A DNA stretch of 64,000 nucleotides from Archivesica marissinica. Its lineage: Eukaryota > Mollusca > Bivalvia > Venerida > Vesicomyidae. A program made the position numbers and the translations under genes. The notes beneath the pieces were generated by a model, which did not search any database, was not told the DNA's origin, and saw only the letters and a list, made by a program, of their open reading frames with translations. The stretch spans positions 42,081,983 through 42,145,982 of the forward strand of contig CM026400.1 in assembly GCA_014843695.1 (NCBI GenBank). Direction: 5' to 3'. Below, piece by piece: positions 742 to 49,700 of this stretch (position 1 is its first letter; the number at the start of each line of letters is the position of its first letter).

Positions 742-860
742 ACATACCTACTTGCTCTTGGACCATAGGATATTGTGTTGATATGGGTTATTGTTTAGCA
801 TACCTACTTGCTCTTGGACCATATGATATTGTGTTGATATGGATTATTGTTTAGCATACC
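742..860 (-). repeat. Donor-site minisatellite: two decoy copies beside an exon end
   Basis: Two copies of a 56-57 bp unit lie directly downstream (minus strand) of the exon ending at 860. Each copy repeats about 28 bases of exon 3' end plus the GTATGC donor. The decoy donors are at about 798-803 and 741-746. The copies differ from the exon at several exonic positions, so they are old enough to have diverged. Confidence 0.7.
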
Positions 861-1137
861 TTCGCGTTCCCGGAGCATAGGATGTTGACCTATAATGGGT
901 CTGACGTTTGGCTGCGGATCATCTGAGTCGTTTGGCTGACTGGTATGGTGAAAGAAAATTCTATGACCAGGCCCAGGATTCCGAACCCTGGATCTGAACC
1001 CCGGATTGGGTCTGACACCGGGAAGCTGATCTACTATTGATTCTTGGCTCTCCGACGGTGATACACTGCTGTCACTTGAGGTCCCCCTCGGATTGACAAC
1101 ACCAGCCCCTCGGCGCCTGAATGGCCTTTCTGGTGAC
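860..1137 (-). CDS. Exon of the MIU-motif gene (most 3' clear exon)
   Basis: The acceptor is ACTTGTAG at 1138-1145 and the donor is GAAG then GTATGC at 859-854. The 278 bp are open throughout; the first base completes an AGG codon begun in the exon at 1830, and the exon ends in phase 1. The peptide is Ser/Pro/Arg rich, including SPERPFRRRG and VRPNPGFRSRV, with no recognised fold. Confidence 0.6.
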
Positions 1138-4100
1138 CTACAAGTGAACGATTATCTGATGCATATTTAACAATTTACTCTCCAACTTTTTGCTCGGGTT
1201 TTACGCCGCATACATCAGCACCATTTTGGGCTATATTGCCGGCAGGCAGTTTAACGGCTTCTTTTGGAGGTACATGTATTTCCCTTTGTTGAATCTAGGG
1301 TCAAACCTGTTTTTCGTGGTCACCTCTATTAAGCAGCCAACCTGTATTAAGCAGCCAGATTCTAGATTCCCAATTTGTTATTTTATTATACCTCTATTTA
1401 GCAGCCACCTGTGCTAAGCAGCCACTTTCTGTGATTCCCTTGGCTGGCTGCTTAAGGCGGGTTTGACTGTATTAACACTATATCACAGGGTCTTACAGAA
1501 GTATCTACAAACTACCAAATAAGAGATCTCATGTTTGCTATGTTCGGGTCTTACGCCTTCATCGGCATCATTTTGGGCTATATCGTCGGCGGGCAGTTTA
1601 CTTAACAACACCTTTCCTGGGCAAGCTCCAGCGGTTAACCAGCACTTGGTGCACCAACCTCCATAAGAAACTGCCAACTGTTTCATATAAATAGTCACGG
1701 CCTGTGCAGGGCTGGAACCCGTGACCATCAGTGATGATAGGTTATAGTGGTATACAAGTCAGCGACCGTAACCACTCGACCGAGGCGGACATACTTGATA
1801 ACTAAATAATCACATTTTAACTAGGGTACCTTGTGAGACCACCTCTTCGAGCCCTTTCTGGTGACCTTCCCGCCATTCTTCTAGCTGCCTGACCCCTTCC
1901 TTCTCCCCTTCCTGCTGCGACCCTAGATGTACTGATGACCATAGGTAGCCTAGGGGCTGTGACCCCTATTGCTGCTGTAGCACCGGATGCTTCAGGAGAC
2001 TCCGGGTTCATTGCCGGTGTTTCACTCTCACCATCCTCATCTTCCACCTCCAAACCAAATAATAAAGGTCAGACAACACTAGTACACTTGCTCTATTCCA
2101 TGCAGAAGTAGAGTTGCTATCAAATAGATAGAGAATATTAGGTTACTGTCCTATAAATTTTAATTTATTCGGCGAGGTGGAGAAAATATACAAGGCAAGG
2201 CTCTGCTGATCCTCGGACCGGGAAGTATTTGAGATGGTACAGTGGACGCCAGATCGGACAGGTGGGTTTTCTCCGGGTACACCGGTTTCCTCCCACACAA
2301 ATGACCACATATGCGCTTTCATCCACGCCAACGAGAGTGATTAATATAAGTTGTTAAAGCTTGTTTCGCAATCGATCTCAAATAAATAAAGTTTAAATTT
2401 TAAACAACGTCTACTTTTGAAGTTGAAGAATTAAACGCAAATTGGCTTTTAATCAATAACATTTGCTTGGCTTGCTTTTGTATTAACCAATGCTATATGT
2501 GTTTATATATGTGTGTGTATATTTCGTAAGTATGATTGAAGACTATCAAATTTTACAATTAAACTTTTACTGTAACATAGAAAATGCATTTAAATTAATT
2601 ATGTTTTTGATTAAATGAATAAATAGTTTAAAAAAAAACTTTTAAAAAAACCGCAAAGAAGTTAAAAGTATGAGTAGTTAAAAGTATAATTTAAGAAAGT
2701 AATGAAAATAAGTTGTGGTAAAAGTTTAAAAGCAGCTACGCAGAACAACTAGGGACTGGCATGATCAATATGGCAAACTGCCGTATTGAATTGCTCTATG
2801 GTAGGAAGATGGACAATGTCAGGAGGGAGATGGTTCCAATGGCAGATTGTTCTTGGAAAAAAGGAAAACTTGTAGTAGTCTGTAGTTGCTGTAATTAACC
2901 TATAGCTTAAGGAATGGCAATGGCGAGCAGGACGGGAGAGGGGAACTAGGTAATTTTCAATGTGAATAGCAACAAGATCATTATGAATTTTATACATAAG
3001 GGATAACCTATTGTCAATACGCCGTTGATCTAGTCTGCGTAGATTTAGGGAATGTAGCATGTCTGTAACACTAGAGGTACGATAGAAGTCAGCCTTTATC
3101 CAACGGGCTGCTCTTCGCTGGACACGTTCAATTTGGTCTATCAATGTTTGAGTATGGGGCGACCAGATCTCGGAGCCGTATTCAAGCTGGGGTCTCACTA
3201 GTGTCTGGTAAGCCATGGACTTAAGGGGTTCGGATTTGACCTGGAGGTTTCTACATAGAAATCCTAATGTTTGGTTTGCTTTCTTTGTTGACCTTTTTAT
3301 GTGAGTGTCCCACAACAGGTTATTTGAGATATCCACGCCAAGGTATTTGGCTGAGGTGACCGACTCACGTAGGACTCCATGGAGTTTATATTTACTGGGA
3401 ATAGGATGTTTCCTTCTGGTGACGTGGATAACTTGACATTTGGAGGGGTTAAATTCCATGTCCCACTCCAACTCTTCTAATCTCTTAAGATCGTTTTGGA
3501 GTGTGACCGATTCATTTGCAGATGTCAGTGATAGATAGACTGCAGTATCATCTGCAAAGATACGGACTTTGAAACTGATGTTTTGTGGGAGGTCGTTTAT
3601 GTAGGCTAGGAAAAGCAGGGGTCCAAGTACGGATCCCTGTGGGACTCCAGAGGACACCGGAATGGCCTCTGAACTAATACCATTAAGGACAACTGACTGG
3701 AGTCTATTATCTAGAAAACTCTTAATCCACCTTAATGTTTGACCTCTGACTCCATAGTCATGCATTTTTAGTAGTACTTTCTCGTGATTGACCTTATCGA
3801 AAGCCTTACTGAAGTCTAATAGGATGAGATCTACCTGATGCTTATTGTAGACAGAGGTAACCAAGTCATTGAATCAGGGTTCATTCTAGGTCAGAATTTT
3901 TGGGAGAAGTGAGAAAGCGCGTGATCACTTCCTTAAATGGTGTTCTTTAATATACTTCTGCAAAATAGGGTTAAAATGCACAGTACAACTATTAAATACA
4001 ACATTTGAATAGAAGGAGTGCTTTATAATGGGCCAGTGCATCTTACTAGACAAAATTTTGTTTGAAAATCGTAAAAACCAAAAAATAATTTATTTTTTTA

Positions 4101-6616
4101 GGGAGAAGGACGAGGGCGAAGTCAGGGTACCTAGGGCGACAATTTCGCCCACATCGCCTTTTAGAATGATCCCTGTTGACTAGCACTTGGTAACCTCTGG
4201 GTTTGAATCCCACTGTGGTGTTCAATCCTTTCATGTCATCCAATTGGCTTGAGGAAGGTCGGTGGCTCTACTTGGGCCCAAACAAAAGATGGCATAGTGG
4301 CTTATAGAGCAGACAGAGCAGGGCACCGCCATGGTTTTTAACCTGCCAATCAGGAGCATTTGCAAACAGCATAGAACCAGATCAGACGATTACGGCAAGG
4401 AATGTGCCATCTGATCAGGCTCTATGCTGTTTGCTATTCGGAGAGAGGAGCTAAATCACATGCCTGAATAGCAAACAATATAGATCCTGATCAGACACAA
4501 TGTTATGTCGTATCTGATCTGGATCTATGTTGTTTGCATTTCCGTCCAATTTATTCGGCAGGTTATGGGTTACAACAAACAGATGCTCAGCACAGAGCGG
4601 AGAGAACAGGGCACTGTGTGACTCTTCAAACAGACAGAGCAGGGAACCGTGTGGCTATCAATGGGCATCGAGTGAGGTTATAAACAGACAGGGCAGGGAA
4701 CTGTGTGGCTATCAACGGGCATCGAGTGAGGTTATAAACAGACAGGGCAGGGAACTGTGTGGCTATTAACGGGCACCGTGTGACTCTTTAAACAGACAGG
4801 GCAGGGAACTGTGTGGCTATTAACGGGCACCGGGTGACTCTTTAAACAGACAGGGCAGGGAACCGTGTGGCTATTAATGGGCACCGTGTGACTCTTTAAA
4901 CAGACAGGGCAGGGAACCATGTGGCTATTAATGGGCACCGTGTGACTCTTTAAACAGACAGAGCAGGGAACAGTGTGGCTATTAACGGGCACCGTGTGAC
5001 TCTTTAAACAGACAGGGCAGGGAACTGTGTGGCTATTAACGGGCACCGTGTGACTCTTTAAACAGACAGAGCAGGGAACAGTGTGGCTATTAACGAGCAC
5101 AGAGTGAGGTTTTAAACAGACAGGGCAGGGAACTGTGTGGCTATTAACGGGCACCGTGTGACTCTTTAAACAGACAGAGCAGGGAACAGTGTGGCTATTA
5201 ACGAGCACAGAGTGAGGTTTTAAACAGACAGGGCAGGGAACTGTGTGGCTATTAACGGGCACCAAGTGAGGTTTTAACCATGGTGCATTGCTAGTATACT
5301 AGTTAATCATTACCTCTAGGGCTTCCGGTTGTAAATGTAGTCCAAACATGGTCTGGAAAAGCTGCCGTATAGGAGTAGCACTCATGGGTCGTCCCGGCAC
5401 TTGATGGAATGGCAGCACCCTAGGCTGAAACAAGAACATTCCTAGATAATTAATGTGTCGGTTGTATAGTTTTGGGCGTCGGGATAACTATCTACATGTA
5501 TACTACACTTACCCGATGGTTCCGCTTGATGTATTTGTTGGTTGAGTCACGTCGGCAAAGGATTAACTACAGTCAAACCTGTGTTAGCGGTCAACTCCAT
5601 TAAGCAGTCAACCTGTATTAAGCAGCCAGATTCCATATTCCCAATATGTTGCTTCATTATACATTTGACCTCTAGTAAGCAGTCACCTGTGCTAAGCAGC
5701 CCCTTTCTGTGATTCCCTTGGCTGGCTGCTTAAACACAGGTTTGACTGTAGGTACATGCATAATTCAGTCAATCGATACTTACTCGGTTCCGCTTTCATG
5801 GAGTCATCAGGCGAGGTTGGCCAAGGGTTAACTAGGTACAGCCGTCATGTATAATTCACTCATCCTCTGTTTACCCTGAAACTTTTCATGAAGTTGTCGG
5901 GCGAGGTCAGCCAAGGAGGGTTAACTAGACACAACCAACATGTATAATTCACTCACCCTAAGTTTACCCTGTTCCTCTTCATGAAGTTGTCGGGCAAGGT
6001 CACCACGGGTTAACTAGACACAGCCAACATGTATAATTCACTCAGCCGATACTCGGTTCCGCATCATGAAGTTGTCGGCGAGGTCGGCCAATGGTTAACT
6101 AGACACATCCTACATGTATAACTCACTCACCCTCTGTTTACACGGTACCTCTTCATTAAGTTGTCGGGCGAGGTCGGCCAATGGTTAACTAGACACATCC
6201 TACATGTATAACTCACTCACCCTCTGTTTACCCTGTTCCTCTTCATGAAGTTGTCGGGCGAGGTCGGCCAATGGTTAACTAGACACAGCCTACATGTATA
6301 ACTCACTCACCCTCTGTTTACACGGTACCTCTTCATGAAGTTGTCGGGCGAGGTCTGCCAATGGTTAACTAGACACAGCCTACATGTATAATTCACTCAC
6401 CCTCTGTTTACCCTGTTCCTCTTCATGAAGTTGTCGGGCGAGGTCGGCCAATGGTTAACTAGACAAAGCCTACATGTATAATTCACTTACCCTCTGTTTA
6501 CCCTGTTCCTCTTCATGAAGTTGTCGGGCGAGGTCAGCATCTAAATCTTCTTGCTCTCTCAGTAGTTGTTCTTGTATCTGTCTGGCAAACTCCTCATCAT
6601 TGTCTGTGTTCTCATC
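860..6616 (-). CDS. Partial multi-exon gene, unidentified, MIU-like ubiquitin-binding motifs
   Basis: Four minus-strand exons chain in phase: 6491-6616, 5314-5424, 1830-2047 and 860-1137. All have AG acceptors and GT donors, and every junction keeps the frame, which is hard to get by chance. The 244 residues visible are internal: no start and no stop was found. The first exon here is acidic and helical, with two motifs of the MIU type (EEFARQIQEQL and DADLARQLHEEE), a class that binds ubiquitin in known proteins. The later exons are Pro, Arg, Ser and Gly rich and look disordered. A ubiquitin-linked role such as an E3 ligase or adaptor is inference. Upstream exons may lie in or beyond the satellite and gap to the right, downstream ones left of the window. 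Two exons are bordered by minisatellites built from their own splice junctions. Confidence 0.6.
1300..1471. mobile_element. Short inverted-repeat element, family M1
   Basis: About 180 bp with ends TACAGTCAAACCTG and CAGGTTTGACTGTA in good copies and internal repeats of the phrase TTAAGCAGCCA. The layout (terminal inverted repeats, no coding capacity, TA-like ends) is that of a MITE. Other copies lie at 5568-5750, 43428-43609 and 50270-50451, with a disrupted one around 29059-30214. Confidence 0.7.
1543..1790 (-). mobile_element. tRNA-headed SINE, family S1
   Basis: Read on the minus strand, the head GTGGTCGAGTGGTTACGG-like is an A box. The B box is degraded in this copy (GGGTTCCAGCCC) but reads GGGTTCGAGCCC in the copy at 35664. 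The body ends in a conserved tail resembling ATGGTGCTGATGCAGGCG. Other copies: 35664-35922, 49985-50222, a deleted one at 53056-53156, and tails at 1192-1257, 8680-8719 and 18367-18425. The tail shared with a different head at 18123 suggests SINE families that exchange heads. Confidence 0.75.
1830..2047 (-). CDS. Exon of the MIU-motif gene (acidic then Gly/Arg-rich)
   Basis: A 218-bp open exon with acceptor GGTTTGGAG and donor ACAAG then GTACCC. It begins in phase 0 (VEDEDGESETP), becomes Ala/Thr rich and ends with Arg/Gly-rich sequence (GRGEGRGQAARRM, SPERARRGG). The end leaves two bases that the next exon completes. The phrase GGTCACCAGAAAGG occurs both near the end of this exon and at the start of the next (1137), so the two exons may share a duplicated segment. 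Confidence 0.6.
2205..2400 (+). mobile_element. SINE tail, family S3
   Basis: It carries the conserved body GATCGGACAGGTGGGTTTTC and the tail AGAGTGATTAATATAAGTTG, ending in an AATAAATAAAGTTT A-rich terminus. The tRNA head is degraded. The next bases to 2748 are AT-rich with nothing recognisable apart from the probable 3' region of the retrotransposon. Confidence 0.65.
2749..3874 (-). pseudogene. 5'-truncated non-LTR retrotransposon reverse transcriptase
   Basis: A 371-residue open frame holds the C-terminal part of a non-LTR reverse transcriptase: LDFSKAFDKV, then GVPQGSVLGPLLF, then the catalytic FADDTAVY box, followed by thumb and C-terminal sequence with HWNHLPPD near the end. This is the CR1/Jockey type of arrangement. 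The endonuclease domain and the first RT motifs are absent, because the frame stops where the M2 element begins at 3875. The remaining frame has no internal stop, so the insertion or truncation is fairly recent. The short 3' UTR runs into AT-rich sequence. It lies in an intron of the MIU-motif gene, in the same orientation. Confidence 0.85.
3875..4175. mobile_element. Short inverted-repeat element, family M2 (CAGGG ends)
   Basis: The ends are CAGGGTTCATTCTAG and TTAGAATGATCCCTG with about 300 bp between, including the phrase GAAGGAGTGCTTTATAATGG. The flanks TTGAAT and TTGACT suggest a 6-bp target duplication with one change. Near-complete copies: 8014-8307 (flanks CATAGC on both sides), 49722-49980, 52033-52287; many partial copies lie further right. 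Confidence 0.75.
4335..4566. mobile_element. Palindromic element, family M3
   Basis: The ends TAACCTGCCAA and TTCGGCAGGTTA enclose two inverted copies of GCAAACAACATAGATCC-like sequence, so the strand can fold on itself at two levels. Related copies: 18490-18681, 24489-24719, 51141-51387 (bounded by TTAA), 55062-55204 (partial) and 58665-58797. It is non-coding. Confidence 0.65.
4605..5275. repeat. 54-bp tandem array
   Basis: About 12 copies of a 54-bp unit (core AAACAGACAGGGCAGGGAAC) in at least two alternating subtypes (CCGTGTGACTC versus CAGAGTGAGGT endings). It stops about 40 bp from the donor at 5313. The unit does not match that exon, so it is adjacent to the junction but not derived from it. 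The long open frames across it are a by-product of a period divisible by three. Confidence 0.9.
5314..5424 (-). CDS. Exon of the MIU-motif gene
   Basis: A 111-bp exon, 37 codons, phase 0 at both ends. The acceptor is TTCTTGTTTCAG and the donor GAG then GTAATG. The peptide includes RQLFQTMFGLHLQPEALE, a likely short amphipathic helix. I do not recognise the family. Confidence 0.65.
5500..6490 (-). repeat. 90-bp donor-site minisatellite (45 bp exon + 45 bp intron per unit)
   Basis: The unit repeats exactly the last 45 bases of the exon 6491-6616 (15 codons beginning DLARQLHEEE) plus the donor and the first 45 intron bases. The spacing is exactly 90 bp for the four units nearest the exon (starts of the shared phrase at 6131, 6221, 6311, 6401 and the real exon at 6491) and degenerates leftward through about five more copies. 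Most copies keep a GTGAGT donor. None begins with a good AG acceptor, so they are half-exons. An M1 element sits in the old end of the array at 5568-5750. Confidence 0.9.
5568..5750. mobile_element. Short inverted-repeat element, family M1
   Basis: Complete copy with TACAGTCAAACCTG at the left end and its inverse at the right. It splits the oldest part of the 90-bp exon-derived array, so that part of the array predates the insertion. Confidence 0.8.
6491..6616 (-). CDS. Exon of the MIU-motif gene with two MIU-like helices
   Basis: A 126-bp exon, 42 codons, phase 0 at both ends. The acceptor is TGTTTCTACAG and the donor AGAGG then GTAAGTG. The peptide is acidic and helical: EEFARQIQEQL and, 18 residues on, DADLARQLHEEE, matching the pattern acidic-x-x-L/F-A-x-x-L/I-x-x-x-E of MIU ubiquitin-binding helices. 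Both borders are taken up by tandem arrays: the 90-bp junction array on the donor side and the 27-bp array on the acceptor side. Confidence 0.7.
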
Positions 6617-7035
6617 CTGTAGAAACATTAAAGTGACACTATATCATAGAAACATTAAAGTGACACTATATCATAAAAACATTATAAAGTGACACTATAT
6701 CATAGAAATATTAAAGCGATACTATATCATAGAAACATTAAAGTGACACTATATCATAGACACATTAAAGCGACACTATATCATAAAAACATTAAAGTGA
6801 CACTATATCATAAAAACATTATAAAGCGACACTATATCATAGAAACATTAAAGTGACACTATATCATAAAAACATTAAAGCAACACTATATCATAGAAAC
6901 ATTAAAGTGACACTATATCATAGACACATTAAAGCGACACTATATCATAGACACATTAAAGTGACACTATATCATAGACACATTAAAGCAACATTATATC
7001 ATAGAAATATTAAAGCAACAACAATATGGAATACA
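6617..7035. repeat. 27-bp tandem array abutting a splice acceptor
   Basis: About 15 copies of a 27-bp unit (AGAAACATTAAAGTGACACT plus ATATCAT). On the minus strand the last unit runs into the acceptor of the exon at 6616, so its T-rich part (TTTAATGTTTCTA) serves as the polypyrimidine tract of the real CTACAG. Most other units read CTATGATATAG at the matching place. Confidence 0.85.
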
Positions 7036-24719: not shown

Positions 24720-24934
24720 GTAATTATAAAGACTTTCATCAACTATGTTTCTCCAGCATTAATTAAGGTATTTTCGGTTTGTCTGATGATAAATGTGTTT
24801 CATGTGTCTACATCTGCAATGGCATCGACAGGCACTTCTATGGGAGAAGATTAAACACTTTCATACACATTCCATTTCCTACATCCCACAGTATTAATCA
24901 ACGATACATTTCCAAGCATTTTTGTCTACATTAA

Positions 24935-31700: not shown

Positions 31701-34700
31701 GCCCCTATTGTCTCCTACAGCTGACCATTGTCTCTGTTGTCTGCTGTCCATTGCCCCTATTGTCTCCTACAGCTGACCATTGTCTCTGTTGTCTGCTGTC
31801 CATTGCCCCTATTGTCTCCTACAGTTGACCATTGTCTCTGTTGTCTGCTGTCCATTGCCCCTATTGTCTCCTACAGTTGACCATTGTCCCTCACAGCTGA
31901 CCTGTCTCTGTTGTCTGCTGTCCATTGTCCCTATTGTCTCCCACAGCTGACCATTGTCTCTGTTGTCTGCTGTCCATTGCCCCTATTGTCTCCTACAGTT
32001 GACCATTGTCTCTGTTGTCTGCTGTCCATTGCCCCTTTTGTCTCCCACAGCTGACCATTGTCTCTGTTGTCTGCTGTCCATTGCCACTATTGTCTCCCAC
32101 AGCTGACCATTGTCTCTGCTGTCTGCTGTCCATTGCCCCCCACAGCTGACCATTGTCTCTGTTGTCTGCTGTCCATTGCCCCTTTTGTCTCCCACAGCTG
32201 ACCATTGTTTCTGTTGTCTGCTGTCCATTGTCCCCCACAGCTGACCTGTCTCTGTTGTCTGCTGTCCATTGCCCCTATTGTCTCCTACAGCTGACCATTG
32301 TCTCTGTTGTCTACTGTCCATTGCCCCTATTGTCTCCTACAGCTGACCATGGTCTCTGTTGTCTGCTGTCCATTGTCCCATTTGTCTCCCAAAGCTGACC
32401 TGTCGCTGTTGTCTGCTGTCCATTGCCCCTATTGTCTCCTACAGCTGACCATTGTCTCTGTTGTCTGCTGTCCATTGCCCCTATTGTCTCCTACAGCTGA
32501 CCATTGTCTCTGTTGTCTGCTGTCCATTGCCCCTATTGTCTCCTACAGTTGACCATTGTCTCTGTTGTCTGCTGTCCATTGCCCCTATTGTCTCCTACAG
32601 TTGACCATTGTCCCCCACAGCTGACCTGTCTCTGTTGTCTGCTGTCCATTGTCCCTATTGTCTCCCACAGCTGACCATTGTCTCTGTTGTCTGCTGTCCA
32701 TTGCCCCTATTGTCTCCTACAGTTGACCATTGTCTCTGTTGTCTGCTGTCCATTGCCCCTATTGTCTCCTACAGTTGACCATTGTCTCTGTTGTCTGCTG
32801 TCCATTGTCCATATTGTCTCCAACAGCTGACCTGTCTCTGTTGTCTGCTGTCCATTGCCCCTTTTGTCTCCCACAGCTGACCATTGTCTCTGTTGTCTGT
32901 TGTCCATTGTCCCTATTGTCTCCCACAGCTGACCATTGTCTCTGTTGTCTGCTGTCCATTGCCCGTTTTGTCTCCCACAGCTAACCATTGTCTCTGTTGT
33001 CTGATGTCCATTGCCCCTCTTGTCTTGTCAATGCTGTTCACTGCCATTTTTGTCCCCCACCCTGCTGCCCGCTACCCCATATGTCTCCCGTCTCCTCTGT
33101 CCTTTGCCCCTTGTGTCTCCCCCTCCCCTCTGTCCATTTCCCCTTGTGTCTCCCCCTCCCCTCTGTACATTACCCCTCAGGTCTTGCCAATGCTGTTCAC
33201 TGCCATGTTTGTCCCCACGCTGCTGCCCATTTCCCCTTGTGTCTCCCCCCCCTCTGTACATTTCCCCTTGTGTCTCCCCCTCCCCTCTGTCCATTTCCCC
33301 TTGTGTCTCCCCCTCCCCTCTGTCCATTTCCCCTTGTGTCTCCCCCTCCCCTCTGTACATTTCCCCTTGTGTCTCCCCCCCCTCTGTACATTTCCCCTTG
33401 TGTCTCCCCCTCCCCTCTGTACATTTCCCCTTGTGTCTCCCCCTCCCCTCTGTACATTGCCCCTTGTGTCTCCCGCTCCCCTCTGTACATTGCCCCTCTT
33501 GTCTCCACATGCTTTATCATTTCTCTATTATGTAACAAGCACTTCCTTATAACAACCATTTTGCTCTATTTCGAAAATAGTGGAACTACAGTCTTTATTT
33601 AACACCTCAATAAACTGTCCGAACTGTTCGATTAGCGCAGTGGTTAGCACGCTGGCTTCTCACCAATGCATCCCTGCTTCGATCCTCGGCCTTGAAAGCA
33701 AGCAAGGTGGTATGGTGGTCGTGAGATCGGACACACAGGTTTTCTACGGGGAGGGGTGCTCCGCTTTCGTCCCACATGAATGACCACAACGAGTGATTAA
33801 TATAATTTGCTAATGCTCGTTTCATAATCAATGCAAAGTTAAAGCTAAACAAAAACGGTTAAATCGAGATCAACTTCCACCTATTGGAAAGGATAACAAC
33901 ACATAAATGAACAGCACCTTGATAACATTGTGTGTCTCGTACAGCTTGAAGAGAGCGTCCGTTGCGGCCAGGTTACGAGCATGATTCTTGTTAGTACCAT
34001 AACTTTCCCCAAGCTGCTGTCTCTGAATTGAGATCACGCATCTAAAAACAAGAAGATTCGGTTTAATAATTTATCTCTGTACAAAAAGATCACGCTTCAA
34101 AAATGGAAGCAATATCAGTTAATAATGTTTGCAACCCAATAAAAACGTTTTCTTTGAGAAATTGAGACCCTGTGTATGTGCAATGGATATCAAGTTCGCC
34201 TCATAATCGATCGCTAAAAGTTTGAACCTTACAAGAACCATGCTGGTCGTGCGTAAGACACTTACATACATACACATTGCCTCCTCTCTCTCTCTCTCTA
34301 ATATTCTCTCTCTCATGGTAATGGATTCCATCAGGTCTTGAGAGCAATCACTTCTCCCTCTTTTGGCAAACTTCTCCCTCTTTCCCCTCATTCCCATCAC
34401 ATCTCCCTCTTTCCGCAAACTTCTCCCTCTTTCCCATCACCTCTCCCTCTTCCTGTCACTTCTCCCTCTTTCCCATCACCTCTCCCTCTTCCTGTCACTT
34501 CTCCCTCTTTCCCATCACATCTCCCTCTTCCCGTCACTTCTCCCTCTTCCCGTCACTTCTCACTCTTTCCCGTCACTTCTCTCGCTTTCCCCTTACTTCT
34601 CCCTCTTTCCCATCACCTCTCCCCATCACTTCTCCCTCTTTCCTGTCACTTCTCCCTCGTTCATGTCACTTTCCCCTCTTCCCCTCACATCTCCCTCTTT

Positions 34701-37700
34701 CCCTCATGTCTCCCTCTTTCTCCTCACATCTCCCTCTTTCCCATCACATCTCCCTCTTTCACCTCATTTATCCCTCTTTCCACAAACTTTTCCCTCTTTT
34801 CAGCTGAGGGAGTTTGTCATACAGAACATAAAGATTTGGCTGATTCATCAAGCTTCTCGCTATTATAGGTACGGCCCTAATATGTACCGGTAGTCCACAT
34901 AACTTGGACAACTGAAGGAAGAATGTTCCTGTAAAGTGTCGGTGATGCTACAACTGCACTGGCAATGGGCCGTAACTTCACAAAGTCAACCAAGCAACGG
35001 TGTGAAAATATGTGTAAATAGTTAATACACTTCTTAGTAATCAGACACATAGCTCCTATAAGGCACTGAAGGCCCCGGCCTGAAGATTGCCATAGAAAAT
35101 GAAAAATCCAAATAGGCAAAACATGCTCATCTGGATCTACACTTTTTGTATCCCTATTTCAATGCCTGTAGCGTTGGAATGGTTAACTAGTTACCTTATG
35201 ATAACACGACGATCAAAATGATACGAACCTAAAATTGCTTTTGACCGATTCCGTCTCCCACTGCAAGATCATGCCATACTGGTTGCAACTAAACTGTAAT
35301 ATACAGAAGGCGTTCCTCGTGCGATCCTTCGACCAATTGTTGTGCTCCATGATAACCAGATCGTCAATATTATGCTCTTCCAGTTCGCTGATCTTGTACC
35401 CGAATCTTCTCAATCCGGCCATGTTTGACTCCACAGTTCTTCCTATTAAAAGATAAGTTTAGTTTAGTTAGGTCATATGACTACCCTGCAGCTAATATTT
35501 GTGGAGGAGGACCGCGGGTGCCACTCCGAGAAGTATGTCAGGTACCCAGGTAGAATCACCGACCTTCCTCAGGCCATGACATCATTCCACATCCCAAGTG
35601 AGATTCGTTATGCCAAAGAGCCCTGTGATCTGACCAGCTGCAGGCTTTGCTGAAACAGTTATGTTATATTTCGGGTTTTACGCCTGCATCAGCACCATTT
35701 TGGGCTATATCGCCGGCGGACAGTTTACCTAACAACACCTTTCCTGGGCAGGCTCCAGCGGTTAACCAGTACTTGGGTGCACCAACCTCCGTAAGAAACT
35801 GGCAACTTTTTCATATAAATGAGACACGGTCTGAGCGGGGCTCGAACCCGTGACCATCAGTGATGATAGGTTACAGTGGTATACAAGTCAGCGACCGTAA
35901 CCACTCGACCACGGAGGCGGACCAAGTGAGATTCGATTTTTTAATTGTACTCCATAGGCTAGGGAGAGCATTGCTATTTATAGGTACATGATAAGCATGA
36001 AAATGTTTGTAAAGCAGTCCGAGATATTAGTCACACGATTTTACCTGATATTTTACACATTTTCGCAGTTTTTATCATTTTCGCCAAACAGAGTTTTTAT
36101 TAGCCAATATTGCCATCTTTTAGCCAATGGCTACTCTGACGAATGCCAGCGTGGGCCCTGAACCAAGTGAGATTCGAACCTACAGCGGCGAGGGGTATAT
36201 GGTTTGAAGTAAACGACCTGCAAGACTCATCTCCAGACGCCTTTCTCACAAGACAAGACAGTCCAAATGAGTGTGGTATCAAGTACCTGCTCGGTGATGC
36301 AATCTATATGGTGTCCGACCCAGAGAGATAAATATTATTATTATAAAAAACAATTGCACTTGCTGATGAAAAAAATGAAAACCTTTCACTTTTTGGAATA
36401 ATTTCAGGGATCATTCTAGAGGGCGAAAGTCACCCTAGGGAACCTGACCTCGCCATCTAAGCACAAGATTGTACAGCGGTGCTCCTACATACAACCGAAA
36501 AATTGTGACGTTAGTTTATACAAATTGATTTTAATTCGATTGCGAAACAAGTTCTTACAACTTACGTTAATCACTCTTCGAGGCCTCATTCCTGATGGAA
36601 TACATCGCCACGAGGGAGAGAGAAGAGGTAATGTGGAATTTAAGTGTGTTGCTTAAGGACACAATCGTAACGGCTATAGCTGGGCTCAAACTTCTCAGAC
36701 CGGGAAGTATGCGAGATGGTACGATGGTCGCCAGATCGGACAGATGGGTTTTCTCCGGGTACTACAGTTTCCTCCCACATGAATGACCACATATCCGAGC
36801 CAACGAGAGTGATTAATATAAGTTGTTAAAACTTGCTTCGAAATCGTTGTAAAATAAATAAAGTTTTAAAAAAACAAACTCCGGGCCTTTCGCACCTGAA
36901 GCGAACGCTCAACCACGAATTGTGAAGTTGTTAACCAATATTATAGGGAAGAGTAATAAAGGGAGCTAATCCAAAGTTTACCTTTAGTACTGAAAACTTG
37001 TGTTACCTGATCCTTTTATAATGACATCTAACAGGGCCGGGTCCTTGACCTCCTCATCGGTGATGCGTTTGTGCTGAGTGACTAGCGTGTCCACACTCGT
37101 AGAGGTGAGCACCTCCCACGCTGAGCTGTATGCCTTCAACATGCAGTCACGCCTTGTTGTTCCCTCAACTACAACAAACATCATATACTGATTGTACATG
37201 TCAAACGGGTCAGCGACGGTAACCACCCCACCACGGAGGCATGCAGTCACGCCTTGTTGTACCCTCAACTACAACAAACATCATATACTGATTGTACATG
37301 TCAAACGGGTCAGCGACCGTAACCACTCGACCACGGAGGCATGCAGTCACGCCTTGTTGTTCCCTCAACTACAACAAACATCATATACTGATTGTACATG
37401 TCAAACGGGTCAGCGACCGTAACCACTCGACCACGGAGGCATGCAGTCACGCCTTGTTGTACCCTCAACTACAACAAACATCATATACTGATTGTACATG
37501 TACAGTCAAATGGGTCAGCGACGGTAACCACTCGACCAAGGAGGTGGACTGGTCTATTTGGAGTAGGTTTTTATTTGGACGTGGGGTCTTCAGTAAGCAT
37601 TCCGCACGTAACCTGTGCACATAACGCAATTTGTTTCCCCGCCAATACAAAAATTTGTTTGTACGTTTTGGCATTGGATACAAAACATACCCAAAAAATC

Positions 37701-40700
37701 TCCAATTTAAAATTCTAACGTACAAAAATGTGGATTCCAAATTTGTTGATGTTTTGTAAAAAGGCACTGTGAAATACGGTACGTACCAAAGTCTGAACAG
37801 TTTGTACCCTATGATTAAGGGTTAGTGTTAAGAGACATTTCGTACCCTAGTCTGGGTAGTTGGTACCCTATGATTAAGGGTTAGTGTTAAGAGACATTTC
37901 GTACCCTAGTCTGGGTAGTTGGTACCCTATGATTAAGGGTTAGTGTTAAGAGACATTTCGTACCCTAGTCTGGGTAGTTGGTACCCTATGATTAAGGGTT
38001 AGTGTTAAGAGACATTTCGTACCCTAGTCTGGGTAGTTGGTACCCTATGATTAAGGGTTAGTGTTAAGAGACATTTCGTACCCTAGTCTGGGTAGTTGGT
38101 ACCCTATGATTAAGGGTTAGTGTTAAGAGACATTTCGTACCCTAGTCTGGGTAGTTGGTACCCTATGATTAAGGGTTAGTGTTAAGAGACATTTCGTACC
38201 CTAGTCTGGGTAGTTGGTACCCTATGATTAAGGGTTAGTGTTAAGAGACATTTCGTACCCTAGTCTGGGTAGTTGGTACCCTATGATTAAGGGTTAGTGT
38301 TAAGAGACATTTCGTACCCTAGTCTGGGTAGTTGGTACCCTATGATTAAGGGTTAGTGTTAAGAGACATTTCGTACCCTAGTCTGGGTAGTTTGTACCAT
38401 ATCTGTATATCTTGGCAGACAAGATACATCCAACATGATATAAATGCGAAAAACACAGGACATAAAACATTTTGGTCAAATACAAAGTTATCCATGTAAT
38501 AAACAAACTGTTAATGAAACTAAATTACACGCATTATAATGGCTGTGTTACGACACTTAATCCTAGGGTACCAACTGTCAAGAATCATCTCAGAAATAGG
38601 GTACCAACTGTCCAGAATCATCTCAGAAATAGGGTACCAACTGTCCAGAATCATCTCAGAAATAGGGTACCAACTGTCCAGAATCATCTCAGAAATAGGG
38701 TACCAACTGTCCAGAATCATCTCAGAAATAGGGTACCAACTGTCCAGAATCATCTCAGAAATAGGGTACCAACTGTCCAGAATCATCTCAGAAATAGGGT
38801 ACCAACTGTCCAGAATCATCTCAGAAATAGGGTACCAACTGTCCAGAATCATCTCAGAAATAGGGTACCAACTGTCCAGAATCATCTCAGAAATAGGGTA
38901 CCAACTGTCCAGAATCATCTCAGAAATAGGGTACCAACTGTCCAGAATCATCTCAGAAATAGGGTACAAAACGCCTCAAGACATTAAGTACGAATCGTCT
39001 CAGACACTGGGTACGAATTGTCTCAGACATTGGGTACGAATCGTCTCAGACATTGGGTACGAATCATCTCAGACACTGGGTACGAATTGTCTCAGATATT
39101 GGGTACGAATTGTCTCAGACATTGGGTACGAAACGTCTCTTAACATTGTGTACGAATCGTCTCGTAAGATTGGGCACGAAACATCCAAACTGGCTAATGA
39201 AACGTCCGTCCAAGGTACGAAACGCCCAGGGTACAAAAAGCCCAGGGTACGAAACGTCCAAGGTACGAAACGTCCGTCCAAGGTACGAAACGTCTGTCCA
39301 AGGTACGAAACGTCCAAGGTACGAAACGCCCAGGGTATGAAACGCCCAGGGTACGAAACGCCCAGGGTACGAAACGCCCAGGGTACGAAACGTCCGTCCA
39401 AGGTACGAAACGTCCGTCCAAGGTACGAAACGTCGTCCAAGGTACGAAACGTCCGTCCAAGGTACGAAACGTCCGTCCAAGGTACGAAACGTCCGTCCAA
39501 GGTACGAAACGTCCGTCCAAGGTACGAAACGTCCGTCCAATGTACGAAACGTCCGTCCAAGGTACGAAACGTCCGTCCAAGGTACGAAACGTCCGTCCAA
39601 GGTACGAAACGCCCAGGGTACGAAACGTCCAAGGTACAAAAAGACCAGGGTACGAAACGTCCAAGGTACGAAACGTCCGTCCAAGGTACGAAACGTCCAG
39701 GGTACGAATTGACTGTAATTCAGAATAACATACTTACTAGTAGTGATGAGTACTTTCTCCAGATAGAGTTCACAGATGAAGTCGCGGCACTGCTCCCCTT
39801 TCTTCGGGTCAGGTTTATATATCAGCATTGGAGTGAGGCCGTTCTGCATTGCCGAGATATCTATCTGATTAATGTTACTCTCCTTGAATGACATCGTACC
39901 TAGGCAACGAATCAGCTCGCCAAATCGTTCCTCAATCGACAAATTCTGTTTAGCTTTGTTTGGCTGCCATCTCTCGCTTCCCTGGAAGATAAAGAGAGAA
40001 GCGTATTTATGTCCATTACCAAAGCAAGACTTTGGTCTCATGGCCATCAGTGCAACGAGACTTCAAAGTGATAAACAAGCTTTTACACTGGACACATGTC
40101 CGATTATCAGACCCATGGAATTTTAAATTGTCCATGACTAAATTCTAGTTGATGACCACTTCTTGACCGAACATGGTCTTAGACCTGTCCCGGGTGTCGG
40201 CCAATATGATTTGTCAAGCTCTGCAAACAACTAGTTATTACAAAATCATGGTTTTAGACATGTCCCGGGCGTCTGCCAATATGATTTCTCAAGCCCTGCC
40301 AATGACTCATACCTACAAAATCATGGTTTTAGACATGTCCCTGGCGTCTGCCAATATGATTTCTCAAGCCCTGCCAATGTCTCATACCTACAAAATCATG
40401 GTTTTAGACATGTCCCGGGCGTCTGCCAATATGATTTCTCAAGCCCTGCCAATGACTCATACCTACAAAATCATGGTTTTAGGGCGTCTGCCAATATGAT
40501 TTCTCAAGCCCTGCCAATGACTCATACCTACAAAATCATGGTTTTAAACATGTCCCGGGCGTCTGCCAATATGATTTGTCGAGCTCTGCAAACAACTAGT
40601 TATTACAAAATCATGGTTTTAGACATGTCCCGGGCGTCGGCCAATATGATTTGTCAAGCTCTGCAAACTAGTTATTACAAAATCATGGTTTTAGACATGT

Positions 40701-43700
40701 CCCGGGCGTCTGCAAATATGATTTGTCGAGCCCTGCCAATGACTCATACTTACAAAATCATGGTTTTAGACATGTCCTGGGTGTCGACCAATATGATTTG
40801 TCGAGCCCTGCCAATGACTCATACCTACAAAATCATGGTTTTAGACATGTCCCGGGCGTCGGCCAATATGATTTGTCGAGCCCTGCCAATGACTCATACT
40901 TACAAAATCATGGTTTCAGACATGTCCCGGGCGTCTGCCAATATGATTTGTCGAGCTCTGCCAATGACTCATACTTACAAAATCGGGTTCTGGTTCCTCC
41001 GGGACAGATTCCATTAATTCCGCTGGAGTCTTCGTTTTTAATCGTTCCAATGTTTTCTCATATGTTTCCGTTTTACACAGCTTCTTGGTGGTTCCGCCGC
41101 CCCGCCCAATCACGATGGGCCCGATGCTCAGTTTGCCCTTACAGTAGAGACGGCCGTTGACGAGCCTGGTTATGTCCACCTGATATTCGTGCTTTATGAG
41201 CACGTGCGCCTGGGTGGACGCCTGCTCCAAGATGGAGATAGGGCTTTCTGGTATGCTCTTCATGTTCTACAAGGGACATAAATCAGGTTATTTTAGGGGT
41301 TGTTATTTTTTTAACTTTATTTATTTTACAACGATTGCGAAGCAAGTCCTAACAACTTATATTAATCACTCTTGTTGGCTCGGATGAAAGCGTAAATGCG
41401 GTCATTCATGCGGGAGGAAACCGGAGTACCCGGAGAAAACCCACCTGTCCGACCTTGCGATCATCTCACATACTTCCCGGTCCGAGGATCGAACCCGTGT
41501 CGCATTGGTGAGAAGCAAGGGTTGTTAGGGTCAGTACTAGTTGCATCTGGTTATTGTCTTGTGGCATGTCGATCACAGTATTATAGTATAATGCGACATT
41601 GCACATGTCAGGGTTCCCGCTGTCGGTCACCAATGGTGCCAAAAAACAAATATTGGCGCTAATTTTGTGTGGCGAAAATATTTGGAGCAACATTTTTTTT
41701 GCACATGTTTTGTCAAATACATGGCTTCAAATATTTATTTGTGAACGATATGGCTTTTAGTTGGCTCTAAATTTTTGTAATTGTCTCCAGTGTTTTTCAA
41801 TAAAAGGCGACAGAAGTGGCGCAGACAAACATTCAGACAGAGGAACCCTGCATGTAATAAGGTATTCTCGTCACATAACCATAGTAGAAATGGTAAACAT
41901 ATATTTTAGGGATGGCAACAAACATTCGACTATTCGAATATTCGCTCAAACTATTCCAGTATTCGAATATTTGGAAAAAATATATATTATTTACAAAAAT
42001 GATATAAACTGTCATAAATCCGATAAGTTGCTTTCTTTTACAATTTGAAGCCATCATAAAACCTTCCAATACAAAAGAAATTGCCCCAGGATGTTTGAAT
42101 AAACAATGTTGTGGTCGCATCATTCTATGGCAAGTGTTAATTGCCATGTAATTGGATAATTACAGTAGGTGCTAAGGTGTTTAATTATGATGTCAAAACT
42201 GTTTAGACGAGAAAATTCCTTTGAAATATTACAGACAAGCTGCAACATCCACCCCGTGTTTCTTAAATTTATAATTAACTGCTCAATATTACCCAAAAGT
42301 ACTATATAAAATACGATCTTTATGATGTTGTCCTCAAAAAAATGCCGCCCACTCAGTCATACGTTTGGAAAGACAACAATCGAGGGAATAAGAAAACTGC
42401 TAGGTGTAAATTGGATTTAACAGATTCGGGTACAAGATCAATCTGAATAATCATTTGGTGCAAATTGGATTTAACAGATTCAGGTACAAGATCAATCTGA
42501 ATAATCATTTGAAAAACAAACACACTTCAACGGAAAGCAGTTCAAGTGACATCGGCTTCATTTGTGAAAACGCCCATAAATGTACAGGGGCCGATAACAA
42601 TAACTGAATGAATCGTTGTCATATTTGCATGGCCTTACAGGAAGAAGATGACGTTTAGTAATGTAAAAGTAGCTTAATTTGGCATTTCTTATAAGAGTTT
42701 GAGTGATTTTGAGTTTTTAATAGAAATAAACCGAATATTCGAATACCTTACTGACCAGATATTCGGATAGTGAAATCGCTATTCGTTGCCATCCCTAATA
42801 TATTTATATATATCTTAGACACCTTAGAAGTATACATGCACCGGATATTGTATTCACCCGGTCTACCCCCGACTGTAGCTGGCACAAATTCTTGTGTGAG
42901 CGACAGTTGGAGATATGAAAACCGAACACACACTGAGATTACAGCAGCCCTCATAGCCCTCTAAACATCTAGTTATAATAATTACAATAGGCAAAACCAT
43001 CAACTTTTAGATGATGTGTATTTTAATCATCTTAGAAAACTCAGTCGCCCAAATTCATTTATGCGGTGGCGACTTTTTATAAATTTATTAGTCAGTCAAC
43101 TGGTTAACCGGTTTAAAGTCGCAACAATAGCTTAGGTGATATGATAACTCTCCGGTTATTGGTGAAGGAAGACCCCCAAGGGCATTTCTCAGCAGTATTT
43201 CAGGCAGGGACAGACACCCTGGTAGAACCACCGACCTTCTGCATGTCAACGGAAACAACTGCTGTTTAACCATTGCAACAAACAAACAAGTATAAACTTT
43301 GCAAGGGGGGGGGTGTCGCAAAAATATTAGGATGACACGATAGGTCTGATTCCGGCCAGGACAGATTTGGTATTGAACATTTTTAGAAGCCCTGCCTACT
43401 ATGTTTACAACTTTACATAAAACTATATACAGTAAAACCTGTCTTAAGCAGCCAGCTAAGGGAATCACAGAAAGTGGCTGCTTAGCACAGGTGGCTGCTT
43501 AATATATGTCAAATATATAATAAAACTACATATTGGGAATCTGGAAACTGGCTGCTTAATACAGGTTGGCTGCTTAATGGAGGTGACCGCTAACACAGGT
43601 TTGACTGTATACATTTCGTACTCACCTGTATAGTACTGGCAAGTTGAGCTAGAATGGATGGAATGTCTCCGCCCACAAGACATTTTGCCTCGGCACAACT

Positions 43701-46700
43701 CGCGTCCGTCGCTTCAAATTCATTCTTCGTCGACTCTTCTTCAGCCTTCATTTGACGATCAAGCTCTTCTCTGTCAAATATTCAAATGTTCAATAAAGTT
43801 ACCACACAAGTTTGACATTCCATGAATTAAAATAAAAATAACACAAACATATAGTAGAGTGGTGGAACCTATGCTTGGCGTATTTCTATGCTAGGCGTAT
43901 TTGTCCATTTACAGCAGTATTTAAAATATTGATATAGTTCTAGGATAATTTCGCTGACAGAGCTGAAGCATGGTTCAATAGCATTCCGTAGCTTAGTTTA
44001 AACATTATGTATTTCATTGAATATACATAGTCTAGTATACATAATACGTACATACATATATACTTGTATCGGTAGCCTGATGCAACTGTCACATAAGTAG
44101 TTTCTATACCATTTCTGATTAAGACCAATAAGTGTTTTTATTCAATGATGTACTATGTCAAAATAAGATATTCAACAAGTTATGGTAGATAAATAAAAAA
44201 TAACAAGTATGCAGTGCATAGGTGCCCTGAAGTCTTGAGTTCCCCATATAAATGGGTGCCGACCCAACACTAATGAAGCTAACACTGTCAACAAAGAGTT
44301 TTTTTAAAGTTATTTTCACAACTTTAGAAAATAATAATATACGGCAGGTGCAATTAACATTTTATACTGGTCATTATATGTGGGATTTACGCCGAGCATA
44401 GGTTCCACCACTCTATGATGGCCATTATATGTGGGATTTACGCAGAGCATAGGTTCCACCACTCTATGATGGCCATTATATGTGGGATTTACGCCGAGCA
44501 TAGGTTCCACCACTCTATGATGGCCATTATATGTGGGATTTACGCAGAGCATAGGTTCCACCACTCTATGATGGCCATTATATGTGGGATTTACGCAGAG
44601 CATAGGTTCCACCACTCTATGATGGCCATTATATGTGGGATTTACGCCGAGCATAGGTTCCACCACTCTATGATGGCCATTATATGTGGGATTTACGCCG
44701 AGCATAGGTTCCACCACTCTATGATGGCCATTATATGTGGGATTTACGCAGAGCATAGGTTCCACCACTCTATGATGGCCATTATATGTGGGATTTACGC
44801 CGAGCATAGGTTCCACCACTCTATGATGGCCATTATATGTGGGATTTATGCGAGCTAGGTTCCCCTCTATGATGGCCATTTATGTGGATTTACGGAGCAT
44901 AGGTTCCTTGGGTTGTGGTGAGCATGTTCCACCACTCTATGATGGCCATTATAGTGGATTTACAGAGCATAGGTTCCACCACTCTATGATGGCCATTATA
45001 TGTGGGATTTACGCAGAGCATAGGTTCCACCACTCTATGATGGCCATTATATGTGGGATTTACGCCGAGCATAGGTTCCACCACTCTATGATGGCCATTA
45101 TATGTGGGATTTACGCAGAGCATAGGTTCCACCACTCTATGATGGCCATTATATGTGGGATTTACGCAGAGCATAGGTTCCACCACTCTATGATGGCCAT
45201 TATATGTGGGATTTACGCCGAGCATAGGTTCCACCACTCTATGATGGCCATTATATGTGGGATTTACGCAGAGCATAGGTTCCACCACTCTATGATGGCC
45301 ATTATATGTGGGATTTACGCAGAGCATAGGTTCCACCACTCTATGATGGCCATTATATGTGGGATTTACGCCGAGCATAGGTTCCACCACTCTATGATGG
45401 CCATTATATGTGGGATTTACGCAGAGCATAGGTTCCACCACTCTATGATGGCCATTATATGTGGGATTTACGCCGAGCATAGGTTCCACCACTCTATGAT
45501 GGCCATAGGAGCATAGGTTCCACCACTCTATGATGGCCATTATATGTGGGATTTACGCAGAGCATAGGTTCCACCACTCTATGATGGCCATTATATGTGG
45601 GATTTACGCCGAGCATAGGTTCCACCACTCTATGATGGCCATTATATGTGGGATTTACGCCGAGCATAGGTTCCACCATTCTACCCGTAGTTGTTAGTAT
45701 CGTTTTTCCATCGTTACTCCTGTTTCCTCCAACATTAATGACCACATATATGGTCTCATCCGCACCAACAAGTTCATAAAGCAGGGTTCCCGCTGCCGGT
45801 CGCCTAAGACGCCAACAACTAGATATTGACTAAATTTTGTGAATTGGCGGAAATATTTGGAAAACATTTTTTAAAAATTGTTTTTGTTTTGTCAAATATT
45901 TATCTGTGAACTAACTATATGGCTCTTAGTTGACTCCAAGTATTTTTAATTGGCTCCAGTGTTTTTCAATTGGTGACAGAAGTGGCGCAGACAAACATTC
46001 AGACAGGGAACAATTGTTGACGTTCGTTCTAGGTCACAGATTTTGTGAGAATAGAGAAAGTGTGTGTTTATCGTCGCTACCGGTTGCCCATATGAGCGAC
46101 GCCTCCTGAAGATATTAGTCATTTTAGATTTTTGGAGGATAGTGCAATGATACAGAGAGAGACCCATTCCAGAGTATCCTCTGGTTCTTTTACGTGCACG
46201 GTGTAAAGCACCGACACGAGACCTCGGTTTAACGTCCCATCTGAAAGACTGTTAATTTTATTAGGGTCAGACGGGTAATCGAACCTGCGATCCCTGGATT
46301 ACCAGTCCAGCGTGTTACCACTGGGCTATAGATCCGTCTGTAAAAAAAAAAATATATATAAAATTTAAATAGAAGGAGTGCTTTATAATGGGCCAGTGTA
46401 TCTACTGGACAAAATCTTGTTGAAAATTGTAAAATAAATAAATTTTGTTTTAGTATATTTTGATGAGTTGGAAGAGGTGGGGCCCCAGGGGGGAAGTCAC
46501 GGTCCCTAGGTCGATTATTTCGCCCAAGTCGCCCTCTAGCATGAACTCTGATCTGTTGTAAAAATAAATAACGTTTATACTTTACCTTATAGCATCAGCC
46601 CCGGGATCCACGAGGTTATATATCTCGGCAACGGTAGAACCCAGCATCACGTTGAAGGCTTTCTGGAACACTTCCTGTTTCAGTTCCTTCTTGTTCGGCC

Positions 46701-49700
46701 GTATCGCACGCGCTAGGAACACGGACTCCAGTTTCAACACCCCCGTGTACATGGCCTTCCCGCTCACCCGAGCAAGTTCTTCGGAGTCATACTCATACTG
46801 TACATTATATATATATAAGATAATTGTTTATTATAGTGACTTGTGTTTTCCAGCATATTTACAACATATATATAAATAACTTCTACCGTATACATGTAAA
46901 TAACTTCTAATATCCGCTTCCCACATAGATAGACACAATGCTTGGTGCAATACCCTCAGAGTCGTACAGCACATCACATATACTGAGTCAAAAAAGAAAC
47001 GATACCAAACTAAAAATGATGTAAAACGAATAAAACCATAGAAAGGTTTAATATATTATTACATATCGGTACCGGGTATCTTATTGCAACGTCAGCCAAC
47101 CATAAACACAGGTAAATAAACACCCGATAATCCTGGAACGCCGAATTTCCGATTTGCACGTGCTCCTCAACAAAGACAACTTCCTACACATGTACAAATC
47201 GGAAAACCGGTTTATTGTACTGGTATTGCATTATCATCGAGGAAAAACACCTTACATACCCATTGTTACCTCTAACAAAATGCCTAGGCTAAACCGCAAT
47301 CGGAGAATGCGTGCCATTGACATGATTGACGGCGGTTTACGTCAGCGTGACGTCGCAAATCGACTCGGGGTTACGCAGATCACGATAACACGTCTACTTC
47401 GACGATATCGAACACATGGATCGGTGGACGACCGTCCAAGATCTGGTCGACCACGTGTGACGACGCGTGAACAGGACCGTCACATTCGGACGTCACATTT
47501 ACGTGACCGGTTCCTACCTGCTACGCACACAGCTGCCGTTACTCCTGGGATGACCAACAATCGCATCAGTGCACAAACAGTCAGGAACCGGCTCGGTGAA
47601 CGTGGCATTCGTGCCTATCGGCCATACGTTGGACCCATCCTGACACGACGTCACCGTGACGTATGGCGGGAATGGACGACGGAACGTGCTCGCTGGACTC
47701 GGTTACAGTGGAATTCGGTGATGTTTAGCGATGAATCGCGGTTCTGTTTGCGTCGAGCGGATGGCAGAGAGCGGGTATATCGCAGACGCATGTGTACGTC
47801 AGGTCGATCTGTTCGGGGGCGGAAGCGTTATGGCGTGGGGCGGTATCACCGTCGGCAGTCGCACTGAACTGTTAGTGGTGGACGGGAACCTAAACGCCCA
47901 GCGGTACTGTGATGAGATCCTTGCGCCAGTTGTTGTGCCGTTCTTTAACGCCAACAGAAACGTCACACTGTTCCAACAGGACAATGCCAGTTGTCATACT
48001 GCTCGGATTTCCACCACATTATTGGAGCAGAACAATATTGAAATCCTGCTGTGGCCTGCTTTGTCACCAGACTTGTTGGGATACGTTAGACCGCCGCGTC
48101 AGACGACGTCAGCCGGTAACGTTAAACCAACTGAGGGATGTTTTGCGTCAGGAGTGGACAAGTATTGACCAGCAACAGATTCAGACAATCTTCCGTTCGA
48201 TGCGACGGCGGTGCATTGCAGTGAGAGACGCAAATGGTGCCCATACTCGGTATTGACGTCTGTGTGAAAACTCCATTAGACCCCTGTCCGACGAATTACG
48301 TCATCACGCAGCAGACAGTTTCGGAGGCTCATTATGCTTTATGTGCTCCTCTTTCAAACATGTTGGACTATCATCTTATGAATTTTCAAAGAATTTTCTT
48401 AATAAATGTTGAAATTATAGACACATACACACCAGGTATCGTTTCTTTTTTGACTCAGTATATATATATATATATATATAAATAACCTCTACCGTATACA
48501 TGTAAATAACTTCTAATATCCGCTTCCCACATAGATAGACACAATGCTTGGTGCAATACCCTCAGAGTCGTACTGTATGTTATATATATATATATATATA
48601 AATAACTTCTACCGTATACATATAAATAACTTCTACCGTATACATATAAATAACTTCTACCGTATACATGTAAATAACTTCTAATATCCGCTTCCCACAT
48701 AGATAGAAACAATGCTTGGTGCAATACCTTCAGAGTCGTACGGCACATCACATATATATATATATAAATAACTTCTACCGTATACATGTAAATAACTTCT
48801 AATATCCGCTTCCCACATAGATAGACACAATGCTTGGTGCAATACCCTCAGAGTCGTACTGTATGTTATATATATATATATATATAAATAACTTCTACCG
48901 TATACATATAAATAACTTCTACCGTATACATATAAATAACTTCTACCGTATACATGTAAATAACTTCTAATATCCGCTTCCCACATAGATAGAAACAATG
49001 CTTGGTGCAATACCTTCAGAGTCGTACGGCACATCACATATATATATATATAAATAACTTCTACCGTATACATGTAAATAACTTCTAATATCCGCTTCCC
49101 ACATAGATAGACACAATGCTTGGTGCAATACCTTCAGAGTCGTATTGTATGCTATATATATATATATGTAAATAACTTCTACCGTATACATATAAATAAC
49201 TTCTACCGTATACATATAAATAACTTCTACCGTATACATGTAAATAACTTCTAATATCCGCTTCCCACATAGATAGAGAAACAATGCTTGGTGCAATACC
49301 TTCAGAGTTGTACGGCACATCTGCTTGGTGCAATACCTTCAGAGTTGTACGGCACATCACATATATATATAACTCATATTAACCACTTCCTACATAGATA
49401 GAACATTGTATGTATCGTATACATATAAGGAATGAGTTCTCGAGAGTGATTAATACAAGTTGTAGGAACTTGTTTCGCAATTGAGCTAAAAAATGAATTT
49501 GTATAAACTAACCAGGGTTCCCACGCTTGCCCAATAACAAAATTCAAGGTATTTTCAATGCATTTTCAAGGTATTTTCTTCAAGTCCAATGTCTAAGTTA
49601 GTAACATAAACTCGCCATTCATGGTCCAAATTTTGGGGAAAACTTAGTTCTCCCTTTCTAGCAACACAGGGGTTTATGGAGAAGTGGGAGAAATGTAAAC

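Follow-up and report, generated by a model that had tools for sequence, protein, structure and literature searches.

In a 64-kb stretch of the genome of the vesicomyid clam Archivesica marissinica (64,000 nucleotides of contig CM026400.1, positions 42,081,983 to 42,145,982, in the 1.54-Gb assembly GCA_014843695.1; hereafter the window), two genes, denoted A and B and both encoded on the minus strand, carry tandem arrays built from their own exon-intron junctions. We consider it likely that these arrays are minisatellites of the mirage type, a name given in the available portions of two reports to tandem repeats spanning exon-intron boundaries in amphioxus (PMC3087553, PMC3902484), and that they originated by tandem duplication at exon borders, mostly at donors, with the true splice site kept by the exon-proximal copy. 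Analysis of an independent set of conserved genes from the same genome showed that array edges, not array coverage, concentrate at donors.

Arrays at splice junctions of two clam genes

A preliminary description of this DNA had placed arrays over the donors at 859, 6490 and 40978 and over the acceptors at 28724 and 37169. All five junctions were confirmed by a copy test in which 160 bases around each true junction were aligned back to its intron side; the extents given here combine this alignment with Tandem Repeats Finder (TRF) analysis. At donor 6490 of gene A (array 5780..6535), the 90-bp unit comprises 48 nt of exon and intron sequence with the donor, and 48-49 nt of exon are repeated in 7 further copies and, more weakly, in 2 others. 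At donor 40978, the gene B array (40172..40984, unit of 75 bp) repeats only 6 nt of exon together with the donor, in 10 further copies. Two acceptors of gene B are covered in the same manner, with 41-48 nt of exon in 4 further copies at 28724 (28683..29043, unit of 72 bp) and 29 nt of exon in 3 further copies at 37169 (37140..37544, unit of 100 bp). In gene A, the array at donor 859 (743..861, period 56) is degenerate, the nearest copy holding 41 nt of exon at 70% identity; immediately beyond the left edge of the window, positions 780-887, with 28 nt of exon among them, are matched by 11 overlapping alignments at 85-89% identity, and a related array with a period of 55 extends over -1068..-358. 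Two further cases, absent from the preliminary description, lie farther left along gene A: an array at -2058..-1078 meets the acceptor near -2051, its unit consensus containing the acceptor and 8 nt of exon, and another, at -5361..-3067, lies beside the donor at about -3063 and has a unit that by eye resembles the exon end.

A sixth array, extending towards acceptor 46798 of gene B (46870..49370), had been listed as probable and retains that status: about 26 nt of exon recur in several alignments with AT-rich intron alongside, but the copies are degenerate (68-74% identity), so that this is a probable mirage. A transposon-like insert at about 47000-48455 lies inside this array and splits one copy from the rest; we take a frame in the insert to resemble a Tc1/mariner transposase. 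Two other arrays were located as previously described and were rejected as mirages. One, in gene A (6620..7020), abuts acceptor 6617, its copies ending 3 nt before the exon with no exon base repeated; the other (24920..28232), judged by its TRF extent, covers the last coding bases of gene B and the stop codon at 28208, which is not a splice junction.

After merging, the TRF output comprised 25 arrays with a minimum length of 100 bp, which cover 28,258 of the 64,000 window bases (44%). Junctions in the window do not lie inside arrays more often than other bases do, and exons are depleted of arrays; given this depletion and the high coverage, location of a junction inside an array was dropped as a test criterion and array edges were tested instead. 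Five of the 25 arrays extend into an exon by 1-50 bp, against a mean of 1.21 in 4000 random non-overlapping placements, 17 of which reached at least 5. When arrays lying within 15 bp of an exon are added, the count is 6 against a mean of 1.57, a value of at least 6 being reached in 11 of the 4000 placements. Among the gene A exon ends used in this test, three were 1 bp off and one was about 19 bp off, with no array near them.

A second assembled copy of part of the region, 42.4 kb leftward, was rejected as independent evidence. Positions 1-8719 of the window are 100% identical to C15:42039562-42048280, both copies end at an N gap of 1000, and the window arrays recur further left at a constant offset of 42421, with eleven further alignments to window positions 780-887. 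Given the identity and the gap in both copies, this 8.7-kb repeat is probably an assembly duplication.

Donors and acceptors in an independent sample

Because the window had been chosen for its junction arrays and was tested after the fact, an independent sample was taken. A profile search of the genome yielded 57 matches to Cpn60_TCP1 and 74 to Myosin_head, and 60 of the 131 listed matches were analyzed with up to 1.5 kb of flank on each side. Removal of 8 loci with an identical matched exon and of L075, a duplicate of L076 truncated by a contig end, left 51 loci, some of which are close paralogs (e.g., L052 and L057, 95% over 180 bp). To call splice sites, the boundary of the profile match was combined with consensus scores. 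Acceptors were called in all 51 loci and donors with a call score of at least 4 in 39, the 12 lower-scoring donors (13 if L075 is kept) being left out. The L073 donor and the L070 acceptor were corrected by eye before the donor count given below. Edges were counted within 60 bp on the exon side of a junction and 15 bp on its intron side, and intron positions with a 140-bp array-free stretch behind them served as controls.

An array edge was found at 8 of the 39 donors, compared with 1.77 predicted by the density of edges at 16-1000 bp (P = 0.0005) and with 4.2% at the array-free control positions (P = 1.7e-4). The excess persists when two hits of one CCT gene are merged (7/38, P = 0.0009) and when all loci are used as the denominator (8/51, P = 0.0011). 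Over four TRF thresholds it amounts to 4.5-7.4 fold (P = 1.7e-4 to 2.2e-5 against the controls); under the stricter ones the donor count remains 8, with the expectation falling to as low as 1.08, and no acceptor is hit. Reading the weak donor calls by eye gave 9/47 (P = 0.00012): L055 is a spanning case, whereas donors were placed in L048, L050, L056, L060, L067, L070 and L072 with no array listed near them. L039, L043, L044 and L076 were left out even after this reading; the L039 array, at +2 of the called site, was not counted, a long frame suggesting that there is no real donor.

Acceptors show no excess: an edge was found at 1 of 51, compared with 3.16 expected by edge density and 5.0% at the controls, and the difference from donors is significant (Fisher P = 0.009). 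Keeping L075 (52 acceptors) gives the same result for both kinds of site. Edges on the acceptor side are frequent 16-165 bp upstream (6, 3 and 4 in the first three 50-bp bins) and nearly absent at the site itself, as if the arrays stopped before the branch point. The preliminary description had maintained that arrays hit junctions more often than random intron sites and that junctions could be hotspots of tandem amplification, and had proposed a genome-wide count of arrays against junctions. The partial version of that count performed here, on 51 CCT and myosin exons, supports both ideas for donors and neither for acceptors.

The eight hits, four in CCT genes (L041, L023, L046, L034) and four in myosin genes (L069, L073, L068, L074), come from seven places in the genome, and their arrays consist of 10-57 copies with 91-98% match. 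In four of the arrays, the repeat extends across the donor by 2-38 nt; the other four begin 2-7 nt past it and, by eye, carry no donor copy. Exon and intron are combined within the unit in L041, L023 and L069: L041 repeats its terminal exon bases and the donor about 10 times, and in L023, a 42-bp unit of 35 exon and 7 intron bases is present in about 26 copies.

Decoy donors and the origin of the arrays

Inner copies of the spanning arrays form decoy splice sites, which were scanned among donor copies. The GT is kept in 9/9 decoys of L041, 25/25 of L023, 5/6 of L069, 5/6 at donor 6490, where the decoys read GTGAGT, and 7/7 at donor 40978. Many decoys retain strong donor scores, and those of L041 equal the true site. 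At all 8 donors examined, reading on past the true donor leads to an in-frame stop after 18-63 nt, so that use of a decoy would usually truncate the protein; the true, exon-proximal donor is thus probably the one that is spliced.

We propose that tandem duplication would act on a short segment that includes or adjoins an exon-intron border, in most cases a donor, that further copies would be added by slippage or unequal exchange and placed in the intron, and that the exon-proximal copy would keep the true splice site, with the inner copies becoming decoys. Because the true site would thus be retained, splicing and the protein should remain unchanged; this duplication mechanism, normal splicing and the cause of the donor bias are what we infer from the genomic DNA. 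Most likely, the bias arises because tandem duplications are unusually frequent at the exon/donor border, while cases that span an acceptor are removed by selection. A decoy acceptor is placed ahead of the true site and would be reached before it, which would expose acceptor-spanning arrays to such selection, whereas donor-spanning decoys lie behind the true donor and should be easier to tolerate. The position of the decoys explains the asymmetry between donors and acceptors, but not the excess of donors over introns, for which arrays must either arise more often at donors or survive longer there.

The latter option, under which junction arrays are no commoner at birth than other arrays but last or stay recognizable longer with the edge copy under purifying selection, appears unlikely. 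The edge copy does hold conserved exon and the splice site, and junction arrays comprise 10-57 copies against a median of 4 for donor-side intron arrays; however, their match of 91-98% is like the intron median of 95, so that they do not look older, and the same protection would be expected at acceptors. It is also unlikely that the pattern results from chance and tolerance, that is, from harmless junction-spanning duplication in a minisatellite-rich genome with no hotspot. Arrays are indeed abundant, covering 0.25-0.42 of the sampled introns from 200 bp outward in addition to the 28,258 of 64,000 bases in the window, and acceptors behave as this explanation predicts, but the donor excess is 4.5-7.4 fold over four TRF thresholds, with P = 1.7e-4 to 2.2e-5 against the array-free control positions, and the count over all loci is 8/51 (P = 0.0011).

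The strong scores of many decoys, equal to the true site in L041, and the stop met at 8/8 donors would suit donor arrays selected for regulating splicing or making poison transcripts. We give this little credence, because 4 of the 8 sampled hits begin after the donor and by eye contain no donor copy, and the units differ between genes. Exon pieces repeated in introns could also be relics of intron birth through tandem duplication of exon sequence holding AG/GT, the Rogers model, which is set out in the available part of PMC3087553 and was proposed for amphioxus mirages. The hits, however, lie in conserved genes and their arrays look young (91-98% match), which makes such relics highly improbable here. 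Insertion of mobile-element minisatellites at junctions is just as doubtful. Some intron arrays are dispersed: the array at 29198-30040, with a 119-bp unit, belongs to a family with at least 148 matches over many contigs, and L074 holds a 119-bp array that by eye looks like this family. Judged on the 37169 array alone, the full unit occurs only at its own locus and not at many unrelated loci, although about 34 nt of its intron part are dispersed elsewhere in the genome. Mirage units contain the exon of their own host gene, which implies that they arose in place; a mobile origin was accordingly rejected for exon-containing units but may still hold for arrays that abut a junction.

Several points weigh against duplication at donors as the explanation. 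A rate hotspot and longer persistence of junction arrays are not told apart by these data, and donor 859 and L046 yielded no close decoys in the scan. In the window, 3 of 16 acceptors are crossed or abutted, compared with 1/51 in the sample (Fisher P = 0.040), so that the window is no fair picture of the genome. The sample itself is small and covers two gene families (60 of the 131 listed matches, 51 after deduplication); the L073 and L070 calls were corrected by eye after a first count, the 9/47 figure adds eight eye-placed donors with the extra hit among them, and all data come from the genomic DNA of one individual.

A bolder and tentative extension, which we would not yet favor, is that splice donors are a genome-wide hotspot of tandem duplication in the clam lineage, with about one in five donors of conserved genes seeded through a transcription- or splicing-coupled process, such as R-loops or nicks at the exon/donor border, that would supply decoy donors and material for new introns. 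If the donor excess is genome-wide, minisatellite birth would be tied to gene architecture, a structure otherwise found reported only in lancelets would have a second, distant lineage, and splice-site tandem duplication feeding intron gain or decoys could be counted in existing clam genomes and RNA.

Host genes and comparison with known arrays

Gene B (28208..55712) encodes a double-stranded RNA-binding protein with a dsrm domain detected by Pfam. Exon borders were determined by tblastn with five homologs, four of them from named bivalves, and GT/AG positions were set by eye. The 12 recognized exons are 55712-55432, ~54087-53912, 51916-51777, 50610-50509, 46797-46586, ~43772-43626, 41266-40979, 39981-39738, 37168-37007, 35442-35229, 34041-33918 and 28723-28208, the exon at ~43772-43626 having been revealed by tblastn with the homologs. 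Its product matches uncharacterized bivalve proteins, among them LOC123548699 of Mercenaria mercenaria (63% identity over 96% of the query) and those of Mya, Dreissena, Mactra and other bivalves, with one gastropod far lower among the listed homologs. Homology to the bivalve proteins extends up to the true junctions.

The part of gene A contained in the window (860..6616) has exons at 6616-6491, 5424-5314, 2047 to ~1843 and 1137-860, with borders from tblastn with one homolog and GT/AG positions again set by eye; it continues left of the window at about -2051..-2151, -2968..-3063 and -6583..-6822. Its product, a RING-type E3 homolog, is 39% identical to one homologous protein with PF13639 and PF17123 domains, the former of which we take to be RING. 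PDB searches with two exons gave no match, and a first Pfam scan of ten window frames returned matches only to reverse transcriptase and a zinc finger. One gene A intron contains a minus-strand frame (2749-3873) with similarity to reverse transcriptase (RVT_1). The sequence GGTCACCAGAAAGG is present near the end of one gene A exon (~1860) and recurs where the following exon begins (~1138), so that a short direct repeat of exonic sequence borders the intron between them. Elsewhere in the window, an 8.4-kb array (9720-18087) of about 400 copies of a 21-bp unit is open in several reading frames and adjoins the gap.

Arrays of this kind had been thought to be undescribed, a view that the amphioxus mirages overturn. 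The original paper on the amphioxus Adh mirage reportedly appeared in Nucl Acids Res in 2002 (30:2871). The available portions of later reports describe mirages in Adh3, the globins BflGb6 and BflGb9, TnC and PGBD5, with cephalochordates as the reported hosts (PMC3087553, PMC3902484). As characterized in the available text of PMC3087553, the unit contains exon and intron, and many, not all, copies have AG/GT signals; regular splicing was undisturbed as judged by reverse transcription PCR, and array length was unstable between haplotypes or somatically. In the clam, exon and intron are joined in the units at 6490, 28724, 37169, 40978 and, in degenerate form, 859, as well as in L041, L023 and L069, and many copies keep splice signals, as scored on donors only. 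The host differs, the nearest homologs being bivalve. We therefore regard the clam arrays as the mirage kind of structure, without claiming common origin, because the host group describes the range of mirages and is not a structural criterion.

So far as described there, amphioxus mirages, like the clam arrays, span both donors and acceptors, have the authentic junction at the edge and contain many AG/GT copies, and unit lengths are similar, 10-160 bp (PMC3087553) versus 31-100 bp for the exon-containing clam units. Lancelet mirages were studied by reverse transcription PCR, whereas the bivalve arrays are known from DNA alone; conversely, the clam analysis adds a controlled count over unrelated genes, with an excess at donors but none at acceptors. 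The Rogers model, as cited in the available part of PMC3087553, likewise has exon sequence carrying splice signals duplicated in tandem; however, duplication of its AG/GT proto-splice sites makes new introns, whereas the clam arrays lie inside existing introns, with no new intron shown. Among mollusks, the available text of PMC6905558 describes a 27-bp minisatellite array in intron 3 of an abalone TSSK1-like gene, which resembles the clam arrays in being a length-variable intronic tandem array. No junction-covering array is described in the available portions of that report or of the one on intron minisatellites of earthworm metallothionein (PMC12783039), and the listed titles and abstract openings of the general and the bivalve and mollusk literature mention no junction-spanning arrays beyond lancelets, although full texts may hold some. 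Thus, the structure itself is already known from lancelets, and what the clam contributes is a bivalve host and a controlled count of donors and acceptors.

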